A stretch of DNA of 64,000 bases from Desulfosarcina sp. BuS5 (GTDB lineage Bacteria > Desulfobacterota > Desulfobacteria > Desulfobacterales > BuS5), in assembly GCF_028752835.1 (NCBI RefSeq), contig NZ_CP087952.1, positions 973,041 through 1,037,040 of the forward strand, read 5' to 3'. Below are positions 7,388-58,302 of the stretch, in pieces. The translations under genes were made by a program, and so were the position numbers. Position 1 is the first letter of the stretch. Every line of letters begins with the position of its first letter. The notes under the pieces are model-generated. The model worked only from the letters and a program-made list of their open reading frames with translations. It was not told the DNA's origin and made no database searches.

Positions 7388-8265
7388 TGTGTGTCCCCCC
7401 GTAAAAGGCTGCGAAAATTTTTGGCTAATGGATATCCCCAAACAGCCTTTATAGATCGGTTCGGTTTAAATGTTTGATCATTTTTACCCCTGCCGGTGGT
7501 GTCTCCAAGATACTTCCAGTTCGCAGCCTTGTAACAGGTACCGGCAAAACGGGTTTTGTCCACAAAAGTTTCAAGGTACCAGATGGGATGATTGTAGATT
7601 TTACGCCAATCCAGGGCCAAGATTTTTATCATGTGACCAAGAAGATGGGAGGCCAGATGTGGTACGCGCACCCATGGTAGAATTAAAAATCGTGTATTAT
7701 ACGCCAAAAGGTGCAGATTTTTTTTACGCGTCTTCGCATCCCAGCCGATAAACCTGTCCCTGCAGCCTATATGCCTCGCTGCAGAAGACCAGGCAAAACA
7801 TGCTATTGGCCGCCCATCAGTATAAACGATGTATTTCAGCTGTTCGCCCACTGAATGGCAGTAACCCAGATAATGGTAATACTCGATCAGGCTGTTGAAC
7901 ATTTTTTCATGCGGGCTTCTGCGTACCTGGCAAAATTCAAGCGGCCGTATTTTGGCTAATTTTGTTTCCAGTAAAGTTTGATTGATCTGAATTTTTTTAG
8001 GTTTTCTACGTTCTACAAATGGATTATGGGGATTACATTTTTTGTCCGGCAGACGTATGAATCCTGCACGGTGCAGTTCTAACATCATACCCCGACAGAC
8101 CATATCACGCAATGCCCCATTGGCCTGGACCCAATTCCAGGCTATGCACAGTTTTCTGGAAAGCGCCCGGCGGCTGGCATCCGGATTTTGAGCAATAAGC
8201 TCCTTGATAAAAATAATATCTTTGTCAGTAACGACTCTGCCTCTATACGTAAACATGGGCATCAA
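7384..8265 (-). CDS. DruA-like (DUF4338) passenger protein of IS66
   Basis: A 293-residue protein of the DUF4338 family, the same family as DruA of the Druantia anti-phage system. Visible features are an N-terminal helical DNA-binding-like part (SRRALSRKLCIAWNW), a central GYCHSVGEQLKYIVY block and a basic C-terminal half with FVDKTRFAGTCYKAANW. It lies between tnpB and tnpC and is coupled to tnpC, so it moves with the transposon. None of the other Druantia genes is present. Whether it helps transposition or acts in defence is not known. The family call is confident; the role is not. Confidence 0.82.
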   Translation of the reverse strand: MMPMFTYRGRVVTDKDIIFIKELIAQNPDASRRALSRKLCIAWNWVQANGALRDMVCRGMMLELHRAGFIRLPDKKCNPHNPFVERRKPKKIQINQTLLETKLAKIRPLEFCQVRRSPHEKMFNSLIEYYHYLGYCHSVGEQLKYIVYTDGRPIACFAWSSAARHIGCRDRFIGWDAKTRKKNLHLLAYNTRFLILPWVRVPHLASHLLGHMIKILALDWRKIYNHPIWYLETFVDKTRFAGTCYKAANWKYLGDTTGRGKNDQTFKPNRSIKAVWGYPLAKNFRSLLRGDTQ

Positions 8266-9055: not shown

Positions 9056-9817
9056 CGGTCATCCTCCTTATATAATATTACGTGATTTGAATGACCGATA
9101 CTACCTTATTTGAATTTGTTTTTCATGCACGCTTGCCGAAAGGACACAGATCTCGGTGAACTCGTTTCCATTGATGGATCTTTAATTGATGCAGTTCTGT
9201 CCATGTACTGGGCTGATTACAGAAAAGGCGCTAAAAAAGCAAAAGGCCATTTCGGCTTTGATGTCAATCGCAAGATTCCTATAAAAATTCATCTGACAAA
9301 TGGAAATGGCGCTGAACGCCCCTTTGTCAGGTCTATCCTTACAAAAGGCCAAACAGGAATCATGGATCGGGGGTATCAATCACATAAGGATTTTGATCTT
9401 CTTCAGGATGAAAAAAAACATTTTGTTTGCCGCATCAAAGCGAAAACAACAAGAACTATTATCAAAGAGCAGCCTGTTGATCCCGACAGCTATATTTTTT
9501 ATGATGCTGTGGTTCTTCTTGGCACTCCTGGGGTAAACCAGACCAGAAAGCCGGTTCGACTGGTTGGTTATAAAATTGCCGGTGTCAAATATTTTGTGGC
9601 AACTGATCGTTATGATCTTACAGCCGAGCAGGTTGCAACCGTTTATAAGCTTAGATGGGATATCGAAACTTTTTTCAAATGGTGGAAGAAACATTTAAAA
9701 GTGTACCACTTGATTGCTCACAGTAGATATGGCCTGATGGTTCAAATCTGGGGTGTCCAAAAACTCAGTTTTGTGGCTACTTTTTTTGCTCAACTTTTGG
9801 CCCTATCATGAGTGCGA

Positions 9818-28122: not shown

Positions 28123-28769
28123 TTTATCCCTCCCCAGCCGATATTGAAGCCGTTTATTATCTTGTTTATTGTATGGCAGGAATTGTTTTGCGTTGCAGCG
28201 GTGAGATGGGTATATCCGGCAGTTGTTAATAAACTGACATGGCCTAAGATTTTTTGCAGCTCAATCAAATCAACCCCTGCTTCTAATAAATGCGTTGCGT
28301 AACTGTGGCGTAAGGAATGACAGGATATTTGTTTTTTAAATCCTATTTGCCGGGTGACCATTTTCATTGCAGTTTGGATTCCACCTATCTCCAGGGGGGA
28401 ATCTACCAGATGAGCATTTTTGAGTCCTCTTTTCCGGTTTGGAAAGATGAATAATGGGTGTTTATGAACCAGCCAAAAATTTCTCAGGATACGCAGGGTG
28501 TTTTCCGGAAGTGGCACAAATCTGTCTTTATTGCCTTTGGCGTCACGAATATGCACCCGCATATGACCGGCATCAATATCTCCGACTTTAAGTTTGATGC
28601 CTTCTCCAAGCCGTAATCCCAGGCTGTAGATGGTGAAGAAAAAGACTTTATAGCTTAATTTTCTGGTTGCTGCGAATAATTGATTCGCCTGTTCAATTGT
28701 GACAATATCAGGAATTCTGGTTGTTTTGGGCGGCTTTATCAAGGGGATATCTTCCCATGTTTTTTTCAA
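28119..28769 (-). CDS. Tyrosine recombinase (XerC/D-like) of the IS91-type element
   Basis: 216 residues with the full tyrosine-recombinase set: Arg in LGLRLGEG, HSLRHSYATHLLEAG, and GH...TAGYTH with the nucleophilic Tyr. The same frame stays open upstream to 29021 and encodes a normal SAM-like N-terminal domain (KTIDAYARAIRRIGNYF). The matching start, ATG 29035 (MDTIDYQ), is in another frame, so a one-base shift near 29016 has probably truncated the protein. It lacks the extra helix insert of IntI and is paired with an IS91 transposase, so it is not the integron integrase. Confidence 0.82.
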   Translation of the reverse strand: MKKTWEDIPLIKPPKTTRIPDIVTIEQANQLFAATRKLSYKVFFFTIYSLGLRLGEGIKLKVGDIDAGHMRVHIRDAKGNKDRFVPLPENTLRILRNFWLVHKHPLFIFPNRKRGLKNAHLVDSPLEIGGIQTAMKMVTRQIGFKKQISCHSLRHSYATHLLEAGVDLIELQKILGHVSLLTTAGYTHLTAATQNNSCHTINKIINGFNIGWGGIK

Positions 28770-29163
28770 TATATTGGTGTAGAAGAATTTCAGACCATAT
28801 AAATCAAGTTTAACTGCACTCCATGAATGAGAGTCTAAAAGCTCATGGAAATAATTCAGTAATTGATCCTGGGCAAGATTGTCCAGTTGGCCATCAAAAT
28901 AGTTGCCAATACGTCTTATGGCTCTTGCGTATGCGTCAATGGTCTTTGGCTGCAGGCCTTTAAGCTTTAAATATTTACAATGCTTTCTATAATACTTGTT
29001 AAATTGTGGATCCTTTGGTAATCAATGGTGTCCATTGTAACCTCCTGTTTTTTGGATTGATAATAAGAATTGCTTTATAATTTATCTTTTATCACTCATA
29101 AATACAGAGGTTGCAACATTTTAGTTTATGGACTCGGATGCTTGCTTGCCGCGTAGCGGCTTC

Positions 29164-31449: not shown

Positions 31450-31500
31450 ACTGGACTGGCATTCCGCTACGCTCCATGCCAGCCAGTGAGCTTAGTCGTT
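31450..31500. other. attC body downstream of intron I4
   Basis: CACTGGACTGGCAT pairs with ATGCCAGCCAGTG with one unpaired A on the left, around the loop TCCGCTACGCTCC. It ends CTTAGTCGTT. Confidence 0.8.
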
Positions 31501-31553
31501 CCAGGCGGCTGCGCCGCCTGGAATCGCGGTGCTTGACGAAGTCAGCACCGCGA
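31498..31553. repeat. Two stacked perfect hairpins at a cassette junction
   Basis: TTCCAGGCGGC/GCCGCCTGGAA and CGCGGTGCT/AGCACCGCG follow each other without unpaired bases. As with clusters A-C they sit between one attC and the next cassette start (TTCGCCA at 31554). Confidence 0.65.
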
Positions 31554-31597
31554 TTCGCCAGTTAAAGCTCTAATTATCTTTTGATGAGCAGGTTAAA

Positions 31598-31888
31598 ATG
31601 AATTATAATTTTGAATGGGATCCATATAAAGCACAGCTTAATCATAAAAAGCATGGTATCCGTTTCGAAGAGGCCGCAACAATTTTTAGAGATCCAGAAG
31701 CATTAACAATATTTGATCCTGATCATAGTAAAATTGAAGACAGATGGATAACAATTGGGATTTCAAAGAAAGGAAGATTGTTGATTGTATGCCATACATT
31801 TCAAGAAGAAAATAAAAATTCGGTGATCATTCGGATATTTTCAAGTCGCAAGGCTATAAAGAAGGAAAGCAGGCTATATGGAGGATAA
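31598..31888 (+). CDS. brnT: BrnT-family toxin
   Basis: 96 residues of the BrnT (DUF497) family, a RelE-like ribonuclease fold. It starts with the typical FEWDPYKAQLNHKKHGIRFEEA and ends with SVIIRIFSSRKAIKKESRLY. The catalytic region is predicted, not tested. It is followed 3 nt later by a BrnA-like antitoxin. The pair fills a cassette bounded by TTCGCCA (31554) and TGGCGAAC (32098). Confidence 0.9.
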   Translation: MNYNFEWDPYKAQLNHKKHGIRFEEAATIFRDPEALTIFDPDHSKIEDRWITIGISKKGRLLIVCHTFQEENKNSVIIRIFSSRKAIKKESRLYGG

Positions 31889-31891
31889 TTT

Positions 31892-32092
31892 ATGAGAAAA
31901 GAATATGATTTTTCTAAAGGGGAAAGAGGAAAGTTTTATCGCCCAGACGTCAAATTGAATTTGCCAATCTATCTTGACGATGAAGTTATTACTTTTATTG
32001 AGAACATAGCGAACAAAAAAGACGTTGATTTATCATTTGTGGCCAATCAATTGCTTCGTAGTAATATGCAATTGGCTGAAGCAATTAAATAA
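31892..32092 (+). CDS. brnA: BrnA-like antitoxin
   Basis: 66 residues. YDFSKGERGKFYRPD is the conserved toxin-binding N-terminus of BrnA-type antitoxins. The rest (LNLPIYLDDEVITFIENIANKKDVDLSFVANQLLRSN) fits a ribbon-helix-helix DNA-binding domain, which would autoregulate the pair. GGAGGATAATTT at the toxin's end provides the ribosome site. Confidence 0.85.
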   Translation: MRKEYDFSKGERGKFYRPDVKLNLPIYLDDEVITFIENIANKKDVDLSFVANQLLRSNMQLAEAIK

Positions 32093-32097
32093 TAATT

Positions 32098-32236
32098 TGG
32101 CGAACAAAGGCATGGAGAGGGACTGGGAAAGTCGGCGACTTTTTTCTCTTTTACAAAGGTCGTCTAAAAGTTATCTTTTTGATTGTTTCCAAGGCTGTAG
32201 CAAGCTTTTCCCAGCCCCTCATGCCAAACGTTCGGC
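32098..32236. other. attC-like site (BrnTA cassette)
   Basis: A long, clear attC. GGCATGGAGAGGGACTGGGAAA pairs with TTTTCCCAGCCCCTCATGCC, and the left arm has an extra G and an extra A. It ends AACGTTCGGC, which opens the next cassette at 32230. Confidence 0.88.
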
Positions 32237-32250
32237 AACCAAAACTGAAA

Positions 32251-32991
32251 ATGAAAAATCTAAGCGAGACTACATTCATGAAAGCCCTGGCTGAAATGGC
32301 CGCGGCATTATTAAAGGACACAGTGGACTCGACACACCCTCGTATCGGCCACTTTACTCGACCCTTCACTAATCAAGAGGAATACCTCAGAGCATGCCTG
32401 ATCTTAGCTGGGGAGGTAAGTGTTGCGTGCGATCAGCTAAACTATGCACTTGCATATCTTTCCGGTTATCAAACTCGTAAAACCTCGGATGGCGAATTGA
32501 TTACCCGCGCGGATTATATAGCCTATCAGTTAGAGAATCTATACCTGCGCTTTGTGATGATTCCTGATCGATCATTGCGACTCACCAATGAGGTTTTCCG
32601 TCTCGGACTTCCTGCGCGTGAGTGTGGAATGCGAACTGTTACGAACAATCAACATTTGAAGGGTACCCCTGTTCGGCCTCGCCTGCGGGCTATCGAAAAA
32701 ATAGTGAAGCCATACCGCAAAATGCGGAACACCATAGCGCATTTAGCCCGATATAATGATCCCGCTCTATCTCGGGTTGAAGTATATTCTGTTCTACAAA
32801 AGGCTGAAGGTCCACCAGATGATTCTGTTCTTGAACGAACACGTCATTTTTACAAGCGTGAGGCGGATACTTACATAGAGGCAAGGCGGAAGGAGTTCGG
32901 ACCAATAGTGAGCGCTCTAATTGGTGAAGTCGAGCGTTTTTTCGAAACATTATTACCACCATTTAGGCGGAACCATTCAGCTCTCAAATGA
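32251..32991 (+). CDS. HEPN-like protein, possible RNase or abortive-infection factor
   Basis: 246 residues from ATG 32251; longer frames to 32179 would cross the attC site. It is mostly helical. The segment RKMRNTIAHLARY contains RNxxxH, the Rx4-6H signature of HEPN RNases, near residue 165. The fold resembles the Cthe_2314-type HEPN family. There is no signal peptide. It is the only gene of a cassette bounded by GTTCGGC (32230) and GCCGAAC (32996), so unlike its neighbours it has no visible antitoxin. HEPN proteins commonly act in RNA cleavage during phage defence; for this one that is inference. Confidence 0.65.
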   Translation: MKNLSETTFMKALAEMAAALLKDTVDSTHPRIGHFTRPFTNQEEYLRACLILAGEVSVACDQLNYALAYLSGYQTRKTSDGELITRADYIAYQLENLYLRFVMIPDRSLRLTNEVFRLGLPARECGMRTVTNNQHLKGTPVRPRLRAIEKIVKPYRKMRNTIAHLARYNDPALSRVEVYSVLQKAEGPPDDSVLERTRHFYKREADTYIEARRKEFGPIVSALIGEVERFFETLLPPFRRNHSALK

Positions 32992-32995
32992 TATA

Positions 32996-33058
32996 GCCGA
33001 ACAAGGCTTTTGCAGCGGAGCGCAAAAAGCGCGCGCCCGCTGAAAAGCAACGTTGTAA
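32996..33058. other. attC-like site (HEPN cassette)
   Basis: A short attC of about 63 nt. GGCTTTTGCAGCGG pairs with CCGCTGAAAAGCA with one extra G on the left. The loop is AGCGCAAAAAGCGCGCG. It is followed by GTTGTAAACC, the start of the gene-less cassette. Confidence 0.85.
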
Positions 33059-33547
33059 ACCTTATCGCAGGCTTAATTTTGAGTTTTATTTTTCACTGTC
33101 TGTTTTGTTAACAGCCGTTGCCGGCATTTGCCGGTTATTGCTTTTGCCGGCATTTTTTGTTGCTTTTTTGAACGTCAGCCTCGGCAAGCATTTTATAAGT
33201 TTCACTGTTTCAGCACTTGGCGACATCTCGCCTTGCTTTTTGCGGCTTTTTTGGTAAAGTCAGCATCGCATCAACAATCATTGTTGCAGAATGCAGCAAA
33301 CAGCGGTTTACGCTTTGGCAACCGTTGTTTTTTATTTTCATTATTCCAGCATCCGGTTGCATCTCGTCTCGCTTTCTGTGACTATTTCTCAAGGCGTTGC
33401 TTATTGTTTTAACTGGTTATGCTGCAAGCGCCGGCAAACAACGGTGAGTTCGCCAACTTTGTATTATTTGCAAGCGTTTAATTACGCTTTCTCAAATCCG
33501 GCTGCTTTACAAAAAGCAGGTCGTCGTATCCGGTAGGGGTTTACAAC
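33052..33547 (+). other. Gene-less integron cassette, copy 2
   Basis: Same cassette as at 1203, with many small differences from copy 1 but nearly identical to copy 3 (57118). A 94-codon frame (33128-33412) exists in copies 2 and 3 only and lacks a ribosome site. I do not call it a gene. Confidence 0.7.
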
Positions 33548-33557
33548 AAAACACTTC

Positions 33558-35827
33558 TCGTGCCAAGATAAATCCGAATCGTTGGGATAAGACACAAGGT
33601 CTTTGAAACTCGATATTGTTATCAAGTGGGTGCTCGGGAAACGGTTTGTTTCCTTCATTTCTGCAGGGCTTGCTCTGGCATTGATGTTAAGATAGTCCCA
33701 CCTGACTAAAGACTAACCAGCAGGTCAGTAGCGAAGTCCACAGGTAAACCCGGTAACGGGAGTCTGGAGCTGGACGGAGCAAGATTGCAGGCTCTGTATT
33801 GAGCCCCGAAAAATGTATGGTTGTGGTCATTGTGATAATCCTGCTTGCAGGAAAAAGCCGACGCTTTGGAGACAGCGGAAGGCAGCAGTCCTGAATATGC
33901 TAAGGCAAGTATTCAGGACACCACCGGGGTCTTAGACCAGGGCATGTACTCAAAGGGGTAGCTCGGGAACTTGGGAGACCCGGATGTTTCCTTGGGTAAA
34001 AAGAACGGTAACAGGAAATCCAGCGCAAGCGAAATCCCGGCGTTGCATAGGAATGTCCCGCCTTGCAACGAGTCTGCCATTGGCAGAAACACAAACATTA
34101 AAAGACGGGCGATACAAGGTATCAGGGGAGGATAGCGAAGAGCGAACGAACCTGAGATAAACATTCGGAAGTCTTAGCAGATCATAGTACCGATGATTAA
34201 GAATTGAACTATCTTGATCGGAAAGGTGGGGAAGTGATGCCCAAGCGACCCACTGCAGGGAAGGTGAAGCAGGGTATAACGTTTTTTTTGGCAGGAATTA
34301 TGGGAGATACACAGAGGTTACAAACCATATCAACAAAAAACCGAGAAATTGCAAGAACGGTCGCTTGCAATTCCAGACCGATAGAATGGGGACAACCACC
34401 GGTGTTAACAGGTGGGTCATCCCTTATCAAAATCGAGCTACTTGCTCAAAATAATCATGAACTGGTATTTACATCAGTAGTCCATCGGATAGACTTTGAT
34501 TTACTGAAACAATCCTTTCGTAAAATTCGGAAAAGCGAATCTGCAGGAGTGGACAAGGTTACGGCAAAGGAGTATGCCGAAAATCTTGATCAAAACCTCT
34601 ATAATCTGTATGAACGACTGCGGAGAGGACAGTACGTTGCGTCTCCTGTAAAGCGTATCTGGATAGACAAGGAAGGAGGGGAAAAGCGTCCAATTGGCAT
34701 ACCTGTACTTGAGGATAAAATTGTCCAGAAAGCAGCAGCAGCCATATTGAATGTCATATTTGACAGGAATTTTTACAATTTTTCCCATGCATTCAGAAAA
34801 GGTCGGAGCCAACACATGGCAATCAAAGATTTACGTGAGCAATGCTTGAAGCAGAATATCAGCTGGATAGTAAGCGCAGATATTACAGGACTATTTGACA
34901 ATATTAATCACGAGTTACTTAAAGACATGATACGTCGGAGAGTAAGTGACGGCGGAATGATTCGCCTGATAGGGAAGTGGTTGAATGCAGGCGTAATGGA
35001 GGAAGGCAACCTGACGTACTCTGAAACGGGCACTCCACAGGGAGGAGTAATTTCCCCTGTGCTCAGTAATATCTTTCTTCATTATGTTTTAGATGACTGG
35101 TACGTGAAAGAAGTGATCCCCCGGATGAAAGGGAGATGCTCCATCATACGCTGGGCGGATGATTTCATCCTCGGGTTCGAGTATGAAAAAGACGCATTGC
35201 GTGTCATGGATGTATTACCCAGGCGGTTCGAACAGTTCGAGCTGTCACTTCACCCGGAAAAGACAAAACTGATTCGATTTTCCAAACGCATTAGCGGAAA
35301 GGGAAACGGGACGTTTGATTTTTTAGGGTTTACATTTTACTGGTCAAAATCATTAAAAGGGTACATGGTAATAAAGAAAAAGACGGCAAGAAAGCGTTCA
35401 AGCCGTTTTATGAAGAGAATATGGATATGGTGCAAGGATAACCGTCATAAGCCAATGGCCGAGCAGTATGAGATTCTTTGCAGTAAACTGCGAGGTTTTT
35501 ACCAGTACTTTGGAGTAATAAGTAACTACAAAGTGCTGGAAGTTGTGTTTGAATATACTGAGAAAGCATGGCGTCGATGGTTAAGCCGAAGAAGTCACAA
35601 GGGCGAAGTAATGTTCGAGGACTTGCGCACAACATACCCACTGCCATTACCCAGAATAGTCCATAATATTTGATGCCGTAAGGGCTGCAAAGTTATACGT
35701 CAAACGGGGTGTCGCCTGTTTGGTTGATAATCCGGTAAAAAGGATTTGAACCGAGGAACCGTATGAGGGAAATCTTCACGTACGGGTCTGTAGGGGGGGC
35801 GTCGGGTAACCGATGCTCCTACCTGGA
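33558..35827 (+). mobile_element. Group II intron copy I5 (T8 subtype), in attC
   Basis: 2270 bp and complete. If the intron is removed, the exons join as ...CACTTC|ACGCGGACAAATT. The left arm TCACGCGGACAAATTTAAG then pairs with CTTTAATTTGCCGGTGA. This supports both the intron ends and the attC identity. Confidence 0.93.
34237..35673 (+). CDS. Group II intron reverse transcriptase/maturase (I5, long form)
   Basis: 478 residues from ATG 34237 behind GGTGGGGAAG. The T8 run at about 34282-34289 joins MPKRPTAGKVKQGITFF to the RT body, which gives the only uninterrupted long-form protein in the window. It differs from the T7 form at a few positions (NNHEL for SNPEL, KSES for KSKS, GEKRP for GKKRP). 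Confidence 0.9.
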   Translation: MPKRPTAGKVKQGITFFLAGIMGDTQRLQTISTKNREIARTVACNSRPIEWGQPPVLTGGSSLIKIELLAQNNHELVFTSVVHRIDFDLLKQSFRKIRKSESAGVDKVTAKEYAENLDQNLYNLYERLRRGQYVASPVKRIWIDKEGGEKRPIGIPVLEDKIVQKAAAAILNVIFDRNFYNFSHAFRKGRSQHMAIKDLREQCLKQNISWIVSADITGLFDNINHELLKDMIRRRVSDGGMIRLIGKWLNAGVMEEGNLTYSETGTPQGGVISPVLSNIFLHYVLDDWYVKEVIPRMKGRCSIIRWADDFILGFEYEKDALRVMDVLPRRFEQFELSLHPEKTKLIRFSKRISGKGNGTFDFLGFTFYWSKSLKGYMVIKKKTARKRSSRFMKRIWIWCKDNRHKPMAEQYEILCSKLRGFYQYFGVISNYKVLEVVFEYTEKAWRRWLSRRSHKGEVMFEDLRTTYPLPLPRIVHNI

Positions 35828-35890
35828 ACGCGGACAAATTTAAGCTACGGTCGTTCCTCCCTCCACTTTAATTTGCCGGTGATTTTGGGT
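35828..35890. other. attC body downstream of intron I5
   Basis: Right part of the attC described under I5. The arms carry an extra G, A and T on the left. The next cassette boundary (GTGATATGCC near 35889) matches GGCATATCA at 36582, one base short of ideal. Confidence 0.75.
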
Positions 35891-35927
35891 GATATGCCCC
35901 CAAAATAATACACAGAGCCATAGCCGT

Positions 35928-35985
35928 AATGTTATAATATGTTATATTTATGTTGATCATTAGATATATTATGTTATATTTTATC
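35928..35985 (+). promoter_or_regulatory. AT-rich repeats upstream of relE, probable operator/promoter
   Basis: ATGTTATATTT occurs twice about 31 nt apart (near 35938 and 35969) directly before the toxin start. Direct repeats here fit autoregulation by the downstream Xre-type antitoxin. Confidence 0.55.
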
Positions 35986-35986
35986 T

Positions 35987-36247
35987 ATGAATGAAATCAT
36001 TTGGCATAACCGAGCACGCAAGCAGATGAAGAGGATTCCTCACCATTACCGGGATGCCATTCATGACAGCGTGGACCAGCTAACAACTTTCCCGGTTTGC
36101 GAACGGCTTGATATTACTGAGCTAAAAAAGCACCGCTATGGGTACCGCTTAAGAGTGGGGCGCTATCGAGTACTATTTAACTATGCCAACATTGTTAAAA
36201 TCATAGAGATACAAGAGGTGAAAAAAAGAGATGAACGCACATACTGA
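35987..36247 (+). CDS. RelE/ParE-family toxin
   Basis: 86 residues with the RelE fold pattern: WHNRARKQMKRIPHHYRDAI, then LKKHRYGYRLRVGRYRVLFNYANIVKIIEIQEVKKRDERTY. The Arg-rich centre and C-terminal Tyr match mRNA-cleaving RelE toxins. It overlaps the antitoxin gene by 17 nt. The toxin comes first, as in higBA-type modules. Confidence 0.88.
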   Translation: MNEIIWHNRARKQMKRIPHHYRDAIHDSVDQLTTFPVCERLDITELKKHRYGYRLRVGRYRVLFNYANIVKIIEIQEVKKRDERTY

Positions 36248-36575
36248 TCCTCAAATAATTACACAAAACGGCAAGCCTTTATTTGTTGTTATCCCTTGGA
36301 ACGAATACCAAGAACTGATTCATAAACAAATTGCACCAGATGAATCTGACGTCTGGTTTCCGAATGAGGTTGTGAAGTCAAATGTTCGAGGGGATAACCT
36401 TATCAAAGCTTGGAGGGAATATTTCAAGCTTACCCAAGCAGAATTGGCAACCAAAGCAGGAATGAAACAGTCGGCTCTGGCCAGGCTGGAAAGCAATAGC
36501 GCCAGCCCAAGAAAAGCCACTCTAATAAAACTGGCGAAAGCCATGGAAATTAGTGTCGAGCAATTAATAGATTGA
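36231..36575 (+). CDS. Antitoxin with Phd-like N-terminus and Xre HTH
   Basis: 114 residues. Residues 1-30 (ITQNGKPLFVVIPWNEYQEL) look like a Phd/YefM-type segment. Residues 55-114 (AWREYFKLTQAELATKAGMKQSALARLESNSASPRKATLIKLAKAM) are a clear Cro/C1-type helix-turn-helix. The mix of the two antitoxin types in one small protein is less usual. It should neutralise the overlapping RelE-type toxin and repress the promoter. Confidence 0.85.
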   Translation: MNAHTDPQIITQNGKPLFVVIPWNEYQELIHKQIAPDESDVWFPNEVVKSNVRGDNLIKAWREYFKLTQAELATKAGMKQSALARLESNSASPRKATLIKLAKAMEISVEQLID

Positions 36576-36581
36576 AAAACA

Positions 36582-36643
36582 GGCATATCAAGTCACTTGT
36601 GCCGACCCAAAAAGCCGGGCGGCACAGTTCTGCTGTTCTGTGC
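36582..36643. other. attC-like site (RelE/Xre cassette)
   Basis: ACTTGTGCCGACCC pairs with GGGCGGCACAGTT with one extra A on the left. The right end GTTCTGTGC (36635) opens the VapBC cassette. Confidence 0.82.
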
Positions 36644-36679
36644 TAAAAAACCACAAATATATTCCCACCGATATATATC

Positions 36680-36723
36680 TTGACAATGCCCCCTTGATAA
36701 TCTATACTAATTAATATAGATTA
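36680..36723 (+). promoter_or_regulatory. vapBC promoter and palindromic operator
   Basis: TTGACA (36680) and TATACT (36703) are spaced by 17 bp, a textbook sigma-70 promoter. AATCTATA...TATAGATT (about 36700-36723) is a palindrome over the -10 box, where a VapB dimer would bind and repress. Confidence 0.75.
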
Positions 36724-36744
36724 ATCTTTAATTTGGAGATCATT

Positions 36745-36993
36745 ATGGACACTGCCAAACTATTTATAAACGGACGTAGTCAAGCTGTACGCTTACCAAA
36801 GTCCTATCGTTTTGAGGGAAAAGAGGTGTATGTCAAAAAAGTATCTGAAGGTGTTTTGCTTTTACCTAAAGACAATACAATCTGGGATGTTTGGGAAAAA
36901 AATTTGAAAAAGTATGACAAGCCATTCATGACAGAGCGAAATCAACCACAATCTCAACAAGAAAGAGAAGGATTGGATGAAATTTTTGATTGA
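36745..36993 (+). CDS. vapB: VapB-family antitoxin
   Basis: 82 residues with an AbrB/SpoVT-type N-terminus ([39 protein letters not shown]) and an acidic, toxin-binding tail. TTGGAG lies 8 nt before ATG 36745, preferred over the in-frame TTG 36733. It overlaps vapC by 17 nt. Confidence 0.9.
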
Positions 36994-37450
36994 CACAAAC
37001 ATTTGCATCTACATCATGAATAATCATCCACCTGAAGTTCTCCAAAAGTTTAAAAGTATAGGTGTGGGTAAGGTGGGGATATCGTCTATAACCGTATCGG
37101 AACTTCATTACGGTGCTTACAAGAGTAATCATATCAAAAAAAATATCAACCGATTGGATGAATTTTTAAGCCCATTTGAAATTTTTTCATATGATGAGAA
37201 TGCTTCAAGATATTACGGAAAAATTCGTTCCCAACTTGAAAAGCAAGGGAATATTATAGGCCCGCTTGACATGCTAATAGCTGCTCATGCATTGAGTAAT
37301 AATTTAATCTTGATTACAAATAATGTTAAAGAATTTATGCGAATAAAATCCCTGCAAGTTGAAAATTGGATAGAAAAACAAGGCACAGAACAATCGCATT
37401 CTCGTGCCAAGATAAATCCGAATCGTTGGGATAAGACACAAGGTCTTTGA
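36977..37450 (+). CDS. vapC: VapC-family PIN toxin, C-terminus extended into an intron remnant
   Basis: PIN-domain RNase. The acidic residues are in FLIDTNI (Asp 6), TVSELHYG (Glu 42) and [12 protein letters not shown] (Asp near 97), with ITNNVKEF at the end of the site. The natural protein should end shortly after [11 protein letters not shown]. Here the reading frame continues through the attC start (37383) and into intron sequence ([15 protein letters not shown]) before stopping. The original stop was presumably lost or lay within the attC. The extra residues are unlikely to disturb the fold. Confidence 0.88.
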
Positions 37451-56886: not shown

Positions 56887-57000
56887 AGCTTTTTCCTATT
56901 TATGAGACTATATGTGTTAACATTATCATTACAATAAATATACATCTTATTTTCAAGATTTCAAGAACTTTTTTATTGCATTGTAATATCAAAAGCTTGA

Positions 57001-57124
57001 AGCGAACAATTTCATGAACTCCGACCGGGAACTCGGTGCGGCCAATTTCAATAGCTACGTTTGAGTTAAACGTGCCTTTAGCGGCTGCCTTTTTAGTTCC
57101 CGGCGGGTTATATCGACGTTGTAA
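57001..57124. other. attC-like site (RelB/YafQ cassette)
   Basis: AGCGAAC (57001) is the reverse complement of GTTCGCT (56342). AACTCCGACCGGGAACT pairs with AGTTCCCGGCGGGTT with one extra A on the left. The polarity is that of the rest of the array, so the cassette is in normal orientation and only its genes are reversed. Confidence 0.83.
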
Positions 57125-57613
57125 ACCTTATCGCAGGCTTAATTTTGAGTTTTATTTTTCACTGTCTGTTTTGTTAACAGCCGTTGCCGGCATTTGCCGG
57201 TTATTGCTTTTGCCGGCATTTTTTGTTGCTTTTTTGAACGTCAGCCTCGGCAAGCATTTTATAAGTTTCACTGTTTCAGCACTTGGCGACATCTCGCCTT
57301 GCTTTTTGCGGCTTTTTTGGTAAAGTCAGCATCGCATCAACAATCATTGTTGCAGAATGCAGCAAACAGCGGTTTACGCTTTGGCAACCGTTGTTTTTTA
57401 TTTTCATTATTCCAGCATCCGGTTGCATCTCGTCTCGCTTTCTGTGACTATTTCTCAAGGCGTTGCTTATTGTTTTAACTGGTTATGCTGCAAGCGCCGG
57501 CAAACAACGGTGAGTTCGCCAACTTTGTATTATTTGCAAGCGTTTAATTACGCTTTCTCAAATCCGGCTGCTTTACAAAAAGCAGGTCGTCGTATCCGGT
57601 AGGGGTTTACAAC
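57118..57613 (+). other. Gene-less integron cassette, copy 3
   Basis: Nearly identical to copy 2 at 33052-33547 but preceded by a different attC and followed, beyond the intron, by a different attC body. Confidence 0.7.
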
Positions 57614-58302
57614 AAAACACTTCTCGTGCCAAGATAAATCCGAATCGTTGGGATAAGACACAAGGTCTTTGAAACTCGATATTGTTATCAAGTGGGTGCT
57701 CGGGAAACGGTTTGTTTCCTTCATTTCTGCAGGGCTTGCTCTGGCATTGATGTTAAGATAGTCCCACCTGACTAAAGACTAACCAGCAGGTCAGTAGCGA
57801 AGTCCACAGGTAAACCCGGTAACGGGAGTCTGGAGCTGGACGGAGCAAGATTGCAGGCTCTGTATTGAGCCCCGAAAAATGTATGGTTGTGGTCATTGTG
57901 ATAATCCTGCTTGCAGGAAAAAGCCGACGCTTTGGAGACAGCGGAAGGCAGCAGTCCTGAATATGCTAAGGCAAGTATTCAGGACACCACCGGGGTCTTA
58001 GACCAGGGCATGTACTCAAAGGGGTAGCTCGGGAACTTGGGAGACCCGGATGTTTCCTTGGGTAAAAAGAACGGTAACAGGAAATCCAGCGCAAGCGAAA
58101 TCCCGGCGTTGCATAGGAATGTCCCGCCTTGCAACGAGTCTGCCATTGGCAGAAACACAAACATTAAAAGACGGGCGATACAAGGTATCAGGGGAGGATA
58201 GCGAAGAGCGAACGAACCTGAGATAAACATTCGGAAGTCTTAGCAGATCATAGTACCGATGATTAAGAATTGAACTATCTTGATCGGAAAGGTGGGGAAG
58301 TG

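Follow-up and report, generated by a model that had tools for sequence, protein, structure and literature searches.

A Cthe_2314-like HEPN gene occurs as a recurring one-gene integron cassette

We analysed a 64,000-nucleotide stretch of Desulfosarcina sp. BuS5 (contig NZ_CP087952.1, positions 973,041 to 1,037,040 of the forward strand; hereafter the window) and found that a gene for a HEPN protein of the Cthe_2314-like family (PF18730) lies there, almost certainly, as a single-gene integron cassette. Genes of the same family were found in one-gene cassettes in other bacteria as well. The recurrence of one-gene cassettes for PF18730 appears to be new, whereas the presence of HEPN proteins in integrons, with a proposed role in dormancy, was already known (PMC3710099). 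A recurring cassette that encodes a probable RNase and no antitoxin raises the question of how the cell survives carrying it, and we consider an RNase that is activated conditionally a better reading than a toxin whose antitoxin is missing.

The HEPN gene and its protein family

The HEPN gene (32251..32991, forward strand, ATG to TGA) encodes 246 aa, and the protein matched PF18730 (HEPN_Cthe2314) at residues 88-169 with 35.6 bits against a Pfam cut-off of 27.1. The initial annotation had recognised a HEPN RNase in the string RNTIAH, and the match bears the family assignment out; judged from its sequence, there is very little doubt that the protein belongs to the HEPN family. The start codon is uncertain, being either the ATG at 32251 or the in-frame ATG at 32278. 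No clear Shine-Dalgarno sequence was seen upstream of 32251; several relatives show, by eye, an AGGA- or GAGG-like stretch 5' of the gene.

The RNTIAH codons (32725..32742, forward strand) specify an Rx4H motif, R159-N-T-I-A-H164. Since the pattern R[NDH]x3H also appeared in 117 of 2000 composition shuffles, the evidence lies in the conservation of the motif and not in the string. R159 and H164 were invariant wherever the alignment covers the site, in ten of ten sequences counting the window protein, and the residue after the motif arginine was N or H in each of them, which corresponds to Rx4-6H with a polar residue. Invariance extended to 11 of the 221 well-covered columns (Y45, E95, N96, R100, D106, R107, L109, N133, L145, R159 and H164). 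The reading of RNTIAH as a HEPN signature is thus lifted above chance by the Pfam match and the conservation, weak though the string alone would be, and the check on Arg and His in homologues that had been proposed with it found both residues kept.

All 11 members of the alignment (A4) matched PF18730 at E <= 0.01. The window protein is 18-25% identical to the other ten, and no close relative was found. One aligned sequence, L035, comes from an ORF that stops short of the motif and was left out of the motif count and of the 11 loci used in the cassette test; it had no attC hit. The G269 gene (L029) was included in the cassette test and left out of A4, its RHYKIH, seen by eye, having been left unaligned by MAFFT. 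L003 was dropped before the counts because its match is antisense to a 905-aa ORF, L021, L030 and L054 because they fall below the Pfam cut-off (L030 also lacks Rx4H by eye), and L038 because its reading frame is not intact. L027 and L031 are the same gene and were counted once.

In what was sampled, the PF18730 family is rare and scattered. In the class sample of 389 genomes it exceeded the cut-off in 6, one of which is the genome of the window; it did so in 2 of the 395 genomes of the phylum sample (both also in the class sample), and in 1 of the 321 genomes of the class of Psychrosphaera, which is the Psychrosphaera genome itself. G317 belongs to the same order as the window genome. Three relatives served as queries for a pattern scan across genome contigs, which led to eight named loci, in Desulfobacula, Azohydromonas, Marinobacterium, Psychrosphaera, Pseudomonas bohemica, Rhizobacter and two Paraburkholderia. 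Pattern scans with the window protein alone found no relative in genome or viral contigs, tblastn with the same protein found none among plasmids and phages, alignment-based scans found none in viral contigs, and tblastn with two relatives gave no match on plasmids. The HEPN gene is single-copy in its own genome, and no PADLOC or NCBIfam model matched the protein at E <= 1.

Predicted fold

The AlphaFold model of the window protein (pLDDT 78.1) showed core helices at residues 41-71, 86-115, 141-165 and 191-245, and the model of the Marinobacterium relative (pLDDT 86.6) had the same layout. In both models the third long core helix ends with the motif, and E95 is part of the second; the HEPN survey describes the same placement of the motif (PMC3710099). 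VIA-align matched the HEPN chains 7ae6_A (Z 7.7, rmsd 5.2, 139 aligned) and 2hsb (Z 7.9, rmsd 3.6, 120 aligned). However, designed bundles and other helical proteins reached equal or higher Z values, up to 10.3, and these values fall in the range about which the tool cautions for helical bundles. Foldseek gave no match at E <= 0.001 against the PDB and viral models, and the family profile gave only weak matches to unrelated proteins among PDB sequences (best E 0.03). The structure searches placed HEPN entries among unrelated helical bundles without separating them, and the predicted fold is therefore consistent with HEPN and not decisive.

Cassette borders

The HEPN cassette runs from crossover to crossover over 822 bp (32231..33052, forward strand), as delimited by complementary half-sites and border homology. 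An attC-like site of the upstream BrnT cassette precedes it (32099..32236, forward strand, score 23), and a second attC-like site ends it (32996..33058, forward strand, score 22). Scanning of 31451-33562 gave two hits, with a null mean of 0.10 and none of 40 shuffles yielding as many. The scanner was home-made and not a standard covariance model, and its score threshold was raised from 13 to 18 after looking; at 13, the hits at L026 and L034 did not exceed those in shuffles. The bottom strand of 32095-32238 folded with a z of -4.32 (0 of 200 shuffles as good) and that of 32994-33054 with a z of -2.36 (4 of 200), the top strand of the latter being similar (z -2.34).

The start half-site GTTCGGC (32230) is the exact complement of the end R'' GCCGAAC (32996) at 7 of 7 positions, as expected of one cassette able to circularise. 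The homology of the preceding attC stops at the left border, and that of the other copies of the following cassette begins at the right one. At eight distinct places, one of them beside the HEPN cassette, the shared sequence begins at 33053 or two bases further on, and what precedes it differs. Elsewhere in the same genome (G000:C1:3992125-3992253), an attC 88% identical to the preceding one joins the following cassette directly, which is the arrangement without the HEPN cassette. Rearranged arrays within this one genome thus back the cassette borders independently.

Between the crossovers, the HEPN gene is the only same-strand ORF of at least 50 aa, and three antisense ORFs of 56-90 aa overlap it. 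The flanking attC-like sites and the lack of any other sense ORF of this size confirm the earlier description of a lone cassette gene. The ATG stands 20 bp past the crossover, which leaves no room for a promoter in the cassette. The nearest same-strand promoter-like site is in the preceding attC, and promoter-like sites were not in significant excess (6 versus 3.4 in shuffles, sd 1.9).

Two side observations concern the sites themselves. The attC before the HEPN cassette belongs to a group of long sites with 85-89% identity, members of which occur here and there on the chromosome and a second contig (G000:C1:704558-704687 and 3992125-3992253; G000:C2:56150-56284 and 56984-57106). By eye, the G of the crossover half-site is replaced by A at 31553-31559 of the window (ATTCGCC) and at 7357-7363 of L026 (ATTATAT); cassette starts of this kind may be a sign that the site has lost its ability to recombine.

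Recurrence of the one-gene cassette

When the 11 HEPN loci were examined for start and end half-sites that complement each other, five passed: the window, G013, G768 (Marinobacterium), G769 (Psychrosphaera) and G269. They span Desulfobacterales and Gammaproteobacteria. Random placements in the same loci passed in 85 of 55,000 cases, and because the windows for the test were set with the sequences already read, 5/11 versus 85/55,000 is a contrast and not an exact probability. An ORF control gave 8 passes among 866, made up of four HEPN genes and four other ORFs in the L025, L026, L029 and L034 arrays; the window gene is absent from these passes because the ORF caller starts at an upstream TTG. 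G241 and G317 have the same layout by eye with the start site one base off, and were scored as failures. The remaining four loci, G767 (Azohydromonas), G771 (Rhizobacter), G772 (Paraburkholderia nodosa) and G335, showed no cassette.

Integrase genes accompany several of these arrays. In G769 a full integrase (381.8 bits) is followed by the HEPN gene as the first cassette, in G241 the HEPN gene lies near a full integrase (420.7 bits), and a full integrase stands by the array of G269 (448.5 bits); in G013 only an N-terminal integrase remnant was found (26.3 bits). Enrichment of PF18730 in integron-bearing genomes was considered and discarded: five of the six positives of the class sample carry an integrase over the cut-off, but so do 179 of the 389 genomes of the class sample. 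With integrases this common in the sample, the genome-level association says little, and the evidence is that at the level of the loci. In the accessible parts of the literature on HEPN proteins, Cthe_2314, integrons and anti-phage cassettes, we found no description of PF18730 as recurring one-gene integron cassettes.

Search for a partner gene

No constant partner was found when the surroundings of the 11 HEPN genes were compared out to 3 kb (502 ORFs of at least 40 aa). The matches between loci, 14 rows in all, comprised integron integrases, ORFs that shadow the HEPN gene on the opposite strand, and three unrelated pairs, namely BrnT (G000, the window genome, and G769), a ParE-like toxin by eye (G013 and G241) and a GFA-type enzyme by eye (G768 and G771). 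A partner inside the cassette was rejected, as its other ORFs of at least 50 aa are all antisense, and antisense ORFs recur between loci solely as shadows of the HEPN gene. There is no MNT nucleotidyltransferase beside the HEPN gene in the window, where BrnT and a 66-aa gene lie upstream and an ORF-poor cassette downstream. The nucleotidyltransferase of G013 was likewise discarded as an MNT partner, since it is Lnu(F), with 586.9 bits against a cut-off of 450, and matched MntA with 23.7 bits against 60. This lincosamide nucleotidyltransferase forms the cassette just before the HEPN cassette in that Desulfobacterales genome (L025 6356-7177), near the integrase remnant.

Surroundings in the window

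The preceding cassette carries a BrnT toxin gene (31598..31888, forward strand; PF04365, 93.3 bits) and a 66-aa gene (31892..32092, forward strand) that is presumed by its position to encode a BrnA-type antitoxin and has no Pfam match over the cut-off. A ParE_toxin/HTH pair (35987-36575) and a MazE/PIN pair (36745-37450) sit beyond a group II intron, and an attC scan of 35829-37408 gave 0 hits; these two pairs are thus neighbours, and their membership of the cassette array is not supported. The setting among toxin-antitoxin pairs given in the initial annotation therefore holds for the upstream BrnT cassette, and for the two pairs past the intron only in the sense of vicinity.

The ORF-poor cassette after the HEPN cassette (about 508 bp, 33053..33559/33560, forward strand) is repeated in the genome. 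It had 17 matches there, ten of which cover at least 503 of the 508 bases or start from base 3; these ten full or near-full copies are 92-100% identical. Copies of the unit lie in the window at 33053-33560, 57119-57626 and 1204-1710, and at L024, L045, L046, L047 and L048. At six of eight places the unit is followed directly by one and the same group II intron (GTGCCAAG...), and at the other two by other DNA.

The group II intron to the right of the array (33560..35828, forward strand, ends approximate) contains matches to RF02005 (33692-33939) and RF00029 (35754-35828) and a reverse transcriptase ORF (34204-35673), and its 5' end GTGCC is common to its copies. It starts directly after the stretch TTTACAAC, which complements the start of its cassette, so that the intron apparently lies in or beside the attC of that cassette. 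RF02005 matched eight times in the window, seven times with equal score (positions 1842, 5192, 20867, 29315, 33692, 37537, 46208 and 57758). Several copies carry insertions or are truncated, as judged from their broken reverse transcriptase ORFs.

Three integron integrases exceeded the cut-off in the window genome, none of them in the window, where only sub-cut-off recombinase matches were seen (28191-28970). The array is thus a CALIN, a cassette cluster that has no integrase next to it. CALINs that hold BrnT/A and other toxin-antitoxin cassettes together with group II introns have already been published, and the group IIC-attC introns among the published ones are said to run against the direction of the cassettes (PMC7923331). 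In contrast, the intron copies that flank the present array on either side point in the same direction as the cassette genes.

Comparison with known HEPN systems

The 2013 survey of HEPN proteins lists the Cthe_2314 family with its motif and records no architecture or operon for it (PMC3710099). The window protein belongs to the same family by Pfam, with Rx4-6H conserved in both. The survey entry for the family is silent on integrons, whereas 5 of 11 loci here are one-gene integron cassettes. Another family in the survey, that of 3jrt, was described from integrons and given a proposed role in dormancy (PMC3710099). Both 3jrt and the window protein are thus HEPN proteins of integron cassettes, but the survey treats the 3jrt family as separate; 3jrt was not among the PDB chains matched by the family profile at E <= 10, nor among the 50 VIA-align rows listed in either run. 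A 2025 paper reports that a genomic island of Staphylococcus chromogenes carries a Cthe_2314 HEPN gene.

HEPN-MNT pairs share the HEPN motif and, by prediction, the fold with the window protein, and their chains occur among the structural neighbours of the models; they have an MNT partner, whereas the window cassette has none. A likeness in behaviour may be offered by Tha, an S. aureus phage HEPN protein that is activated by phage tail proteins (PMC11087260). Tha is reported to carry an RNSIMH motif, to be inactive as H270A, and to have no effect on growth when expressed from a plasmid without phage (PMC11087260). By this description, Tha is likened to the window protein as a HEPN protein with RNxxxH that has no usual bound antitoxin gene and would be tolerated until triggered. 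It differs in its size (301 aa, with a separate N-terminal part) and in being prophage-borne with an antisense inhibitor gene, ith. No literature on 'HEPN-TM' was found.

Proposed mode of action and alternatives

We propose that the protein would be a homodimeric, metal-independent endoribonuclease with an active site formed by the R159-H164 pairs of two protomers. Its inactive state would be tolerated at low read-through expression; a signal from infection or stress would switch it on, and the activated protein would then cut cellular RNA and stop growth. The parts of this proposal differ in strength. That the protein is an active RNase is probable, and a conditional switch, rather than a toxin that needs an antitoxin, has a somewhat better than even chance by analogy with Tha. 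A phage as the trigger is plausible and still on the doubtful side. The suggestion of the initial annotation that the RNase may be self-regulated or phage-triggered is neither favoured nor opposed directly by the present findings, Tha being one precedent for it. Taken as a whole, a solo Cthe_2314-like HEPN that acts as a conditionally activated RNase falls just short of an even chance. It draws on the PF18730 match, the conserved motif and its place in the models, the recurrence of the one-gene cassette, the lack of a recurring partner and the Tha precedent. Moreover, the cassette has neither an antitoxin nor a promoter, and a cell could hardly afford an RNase that is always active, which by analogy favours a protein that stays inactive until triggered. 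Against it count the missing PADLOC match, structure searches that fail to set HEPN apart, the possible silence of the gene in this array and the four of 11 loci at which no cassette was seen.

The evidence may also be read in four other ways. The protein could be a plain toxin whose antitoxin, such as a nucleotidyltransferase as in HEPN-MNT, lies elsewhere in the genome, its solitude reflecting a split into two cassettes. HEPN toxins of MNT pairs do appear among the structural neighbours (7ae6, 8xeh and 6m6w), the neighbours in the window are toxin-antitoxin pairs, and the preceding cassette in G013 encodes a nucleotidyltransferase. That enzyme, however, is a lincosamide resistance protein at one of 11 loci, and no other gene recurs beside the HEPN gene, so that we consider a split toxin improbable. 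A shade less probable still is a stress-dormancy RNase with no dedicated trigger, in which expression of the cassette would itself slow growth by RNA cleavage. Without room for a promoter, expression would follow read-through or cassette shuffling, and such a role was proposed in 2013 for the integron family of 3jrt, but the proposal as given in the survey concerns another family and is itself hypothetical there (PMC3710099).

The gene might instead be a silent passenger, intact and unexpressed in a stranded array broken up by group II introns. The window has no full integrase and the region holds introns, no clear ribosome-binding site precedes the gene, unlike in several relatives (by eye), and the number of promoter-like sites is within the shuffle range. 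The array being detached from a full integrase and the gene having no clear ribosome-binding site, the gene may be silent here; yet its reading frame is intact and its catalytic residues are conserved, and we regard a mere passenger as more improbable than either of the two preceding readings. The least probable of the four is a HEPN-like helical protein devoid of RNase activity, for example a binding domain. It would suit the dominance of unrelated helical bundles in the structure searches and the prediction in the survey that some HEPN groups are inactive, but the groups so predicted generally lose part of Rx4-6H (PMC3710099), which here is invariant in 10 of 10 sequences.

A conditionally activated RNase remains our preferred reading. 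A wider version of it, in which PF18730 would comprise solo, antitoxin-free, infection-triggered RNases that sense the trigger themselves and are spread by integrons between Desulfobacterota and Gammaproteobacteria as a portable abortive-infection switch, seems rather unlikely. Resistance genes, together with toxin-antitoxin pairs that stabilise the array, are the best-known contents of integron cassettes, and recent work treats integrons as stores of phage defence. If the HEPN cassette were anti-phage, the defence content of integrons would gain a family without a PADLOC match.

Defence-type neighbours at other loci

Defence-type neighbours were seen at some loci; they form a list without a control, and 6 of the 10 scanned neighbours had no PADLOC match at E <= 1e-5. 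A PD-Lambda-4-like protein is encoded 3.4 kb from the HEPN gene of G767, and a neighbour protein in G335 matches RT-associated primase-like models. G241 holds a two-gene cassette (L026 8226-9252) for a small protein without a Pfam match and a TIR-domain protein, which lies between attC sites at 8099-8185 and 9207-9266 and has complementary half-sites, making it a possible TIR defence cassette. In Paraburkholderia nodosa (G772, L037 7286-9556), the HEPN_Cthe2314 gene has a weak HEPN match (17.1 bits, below the cut-off) on one side and AbiV (141.2 bits) on the other, possibly a HEPN cluster outside integrons.
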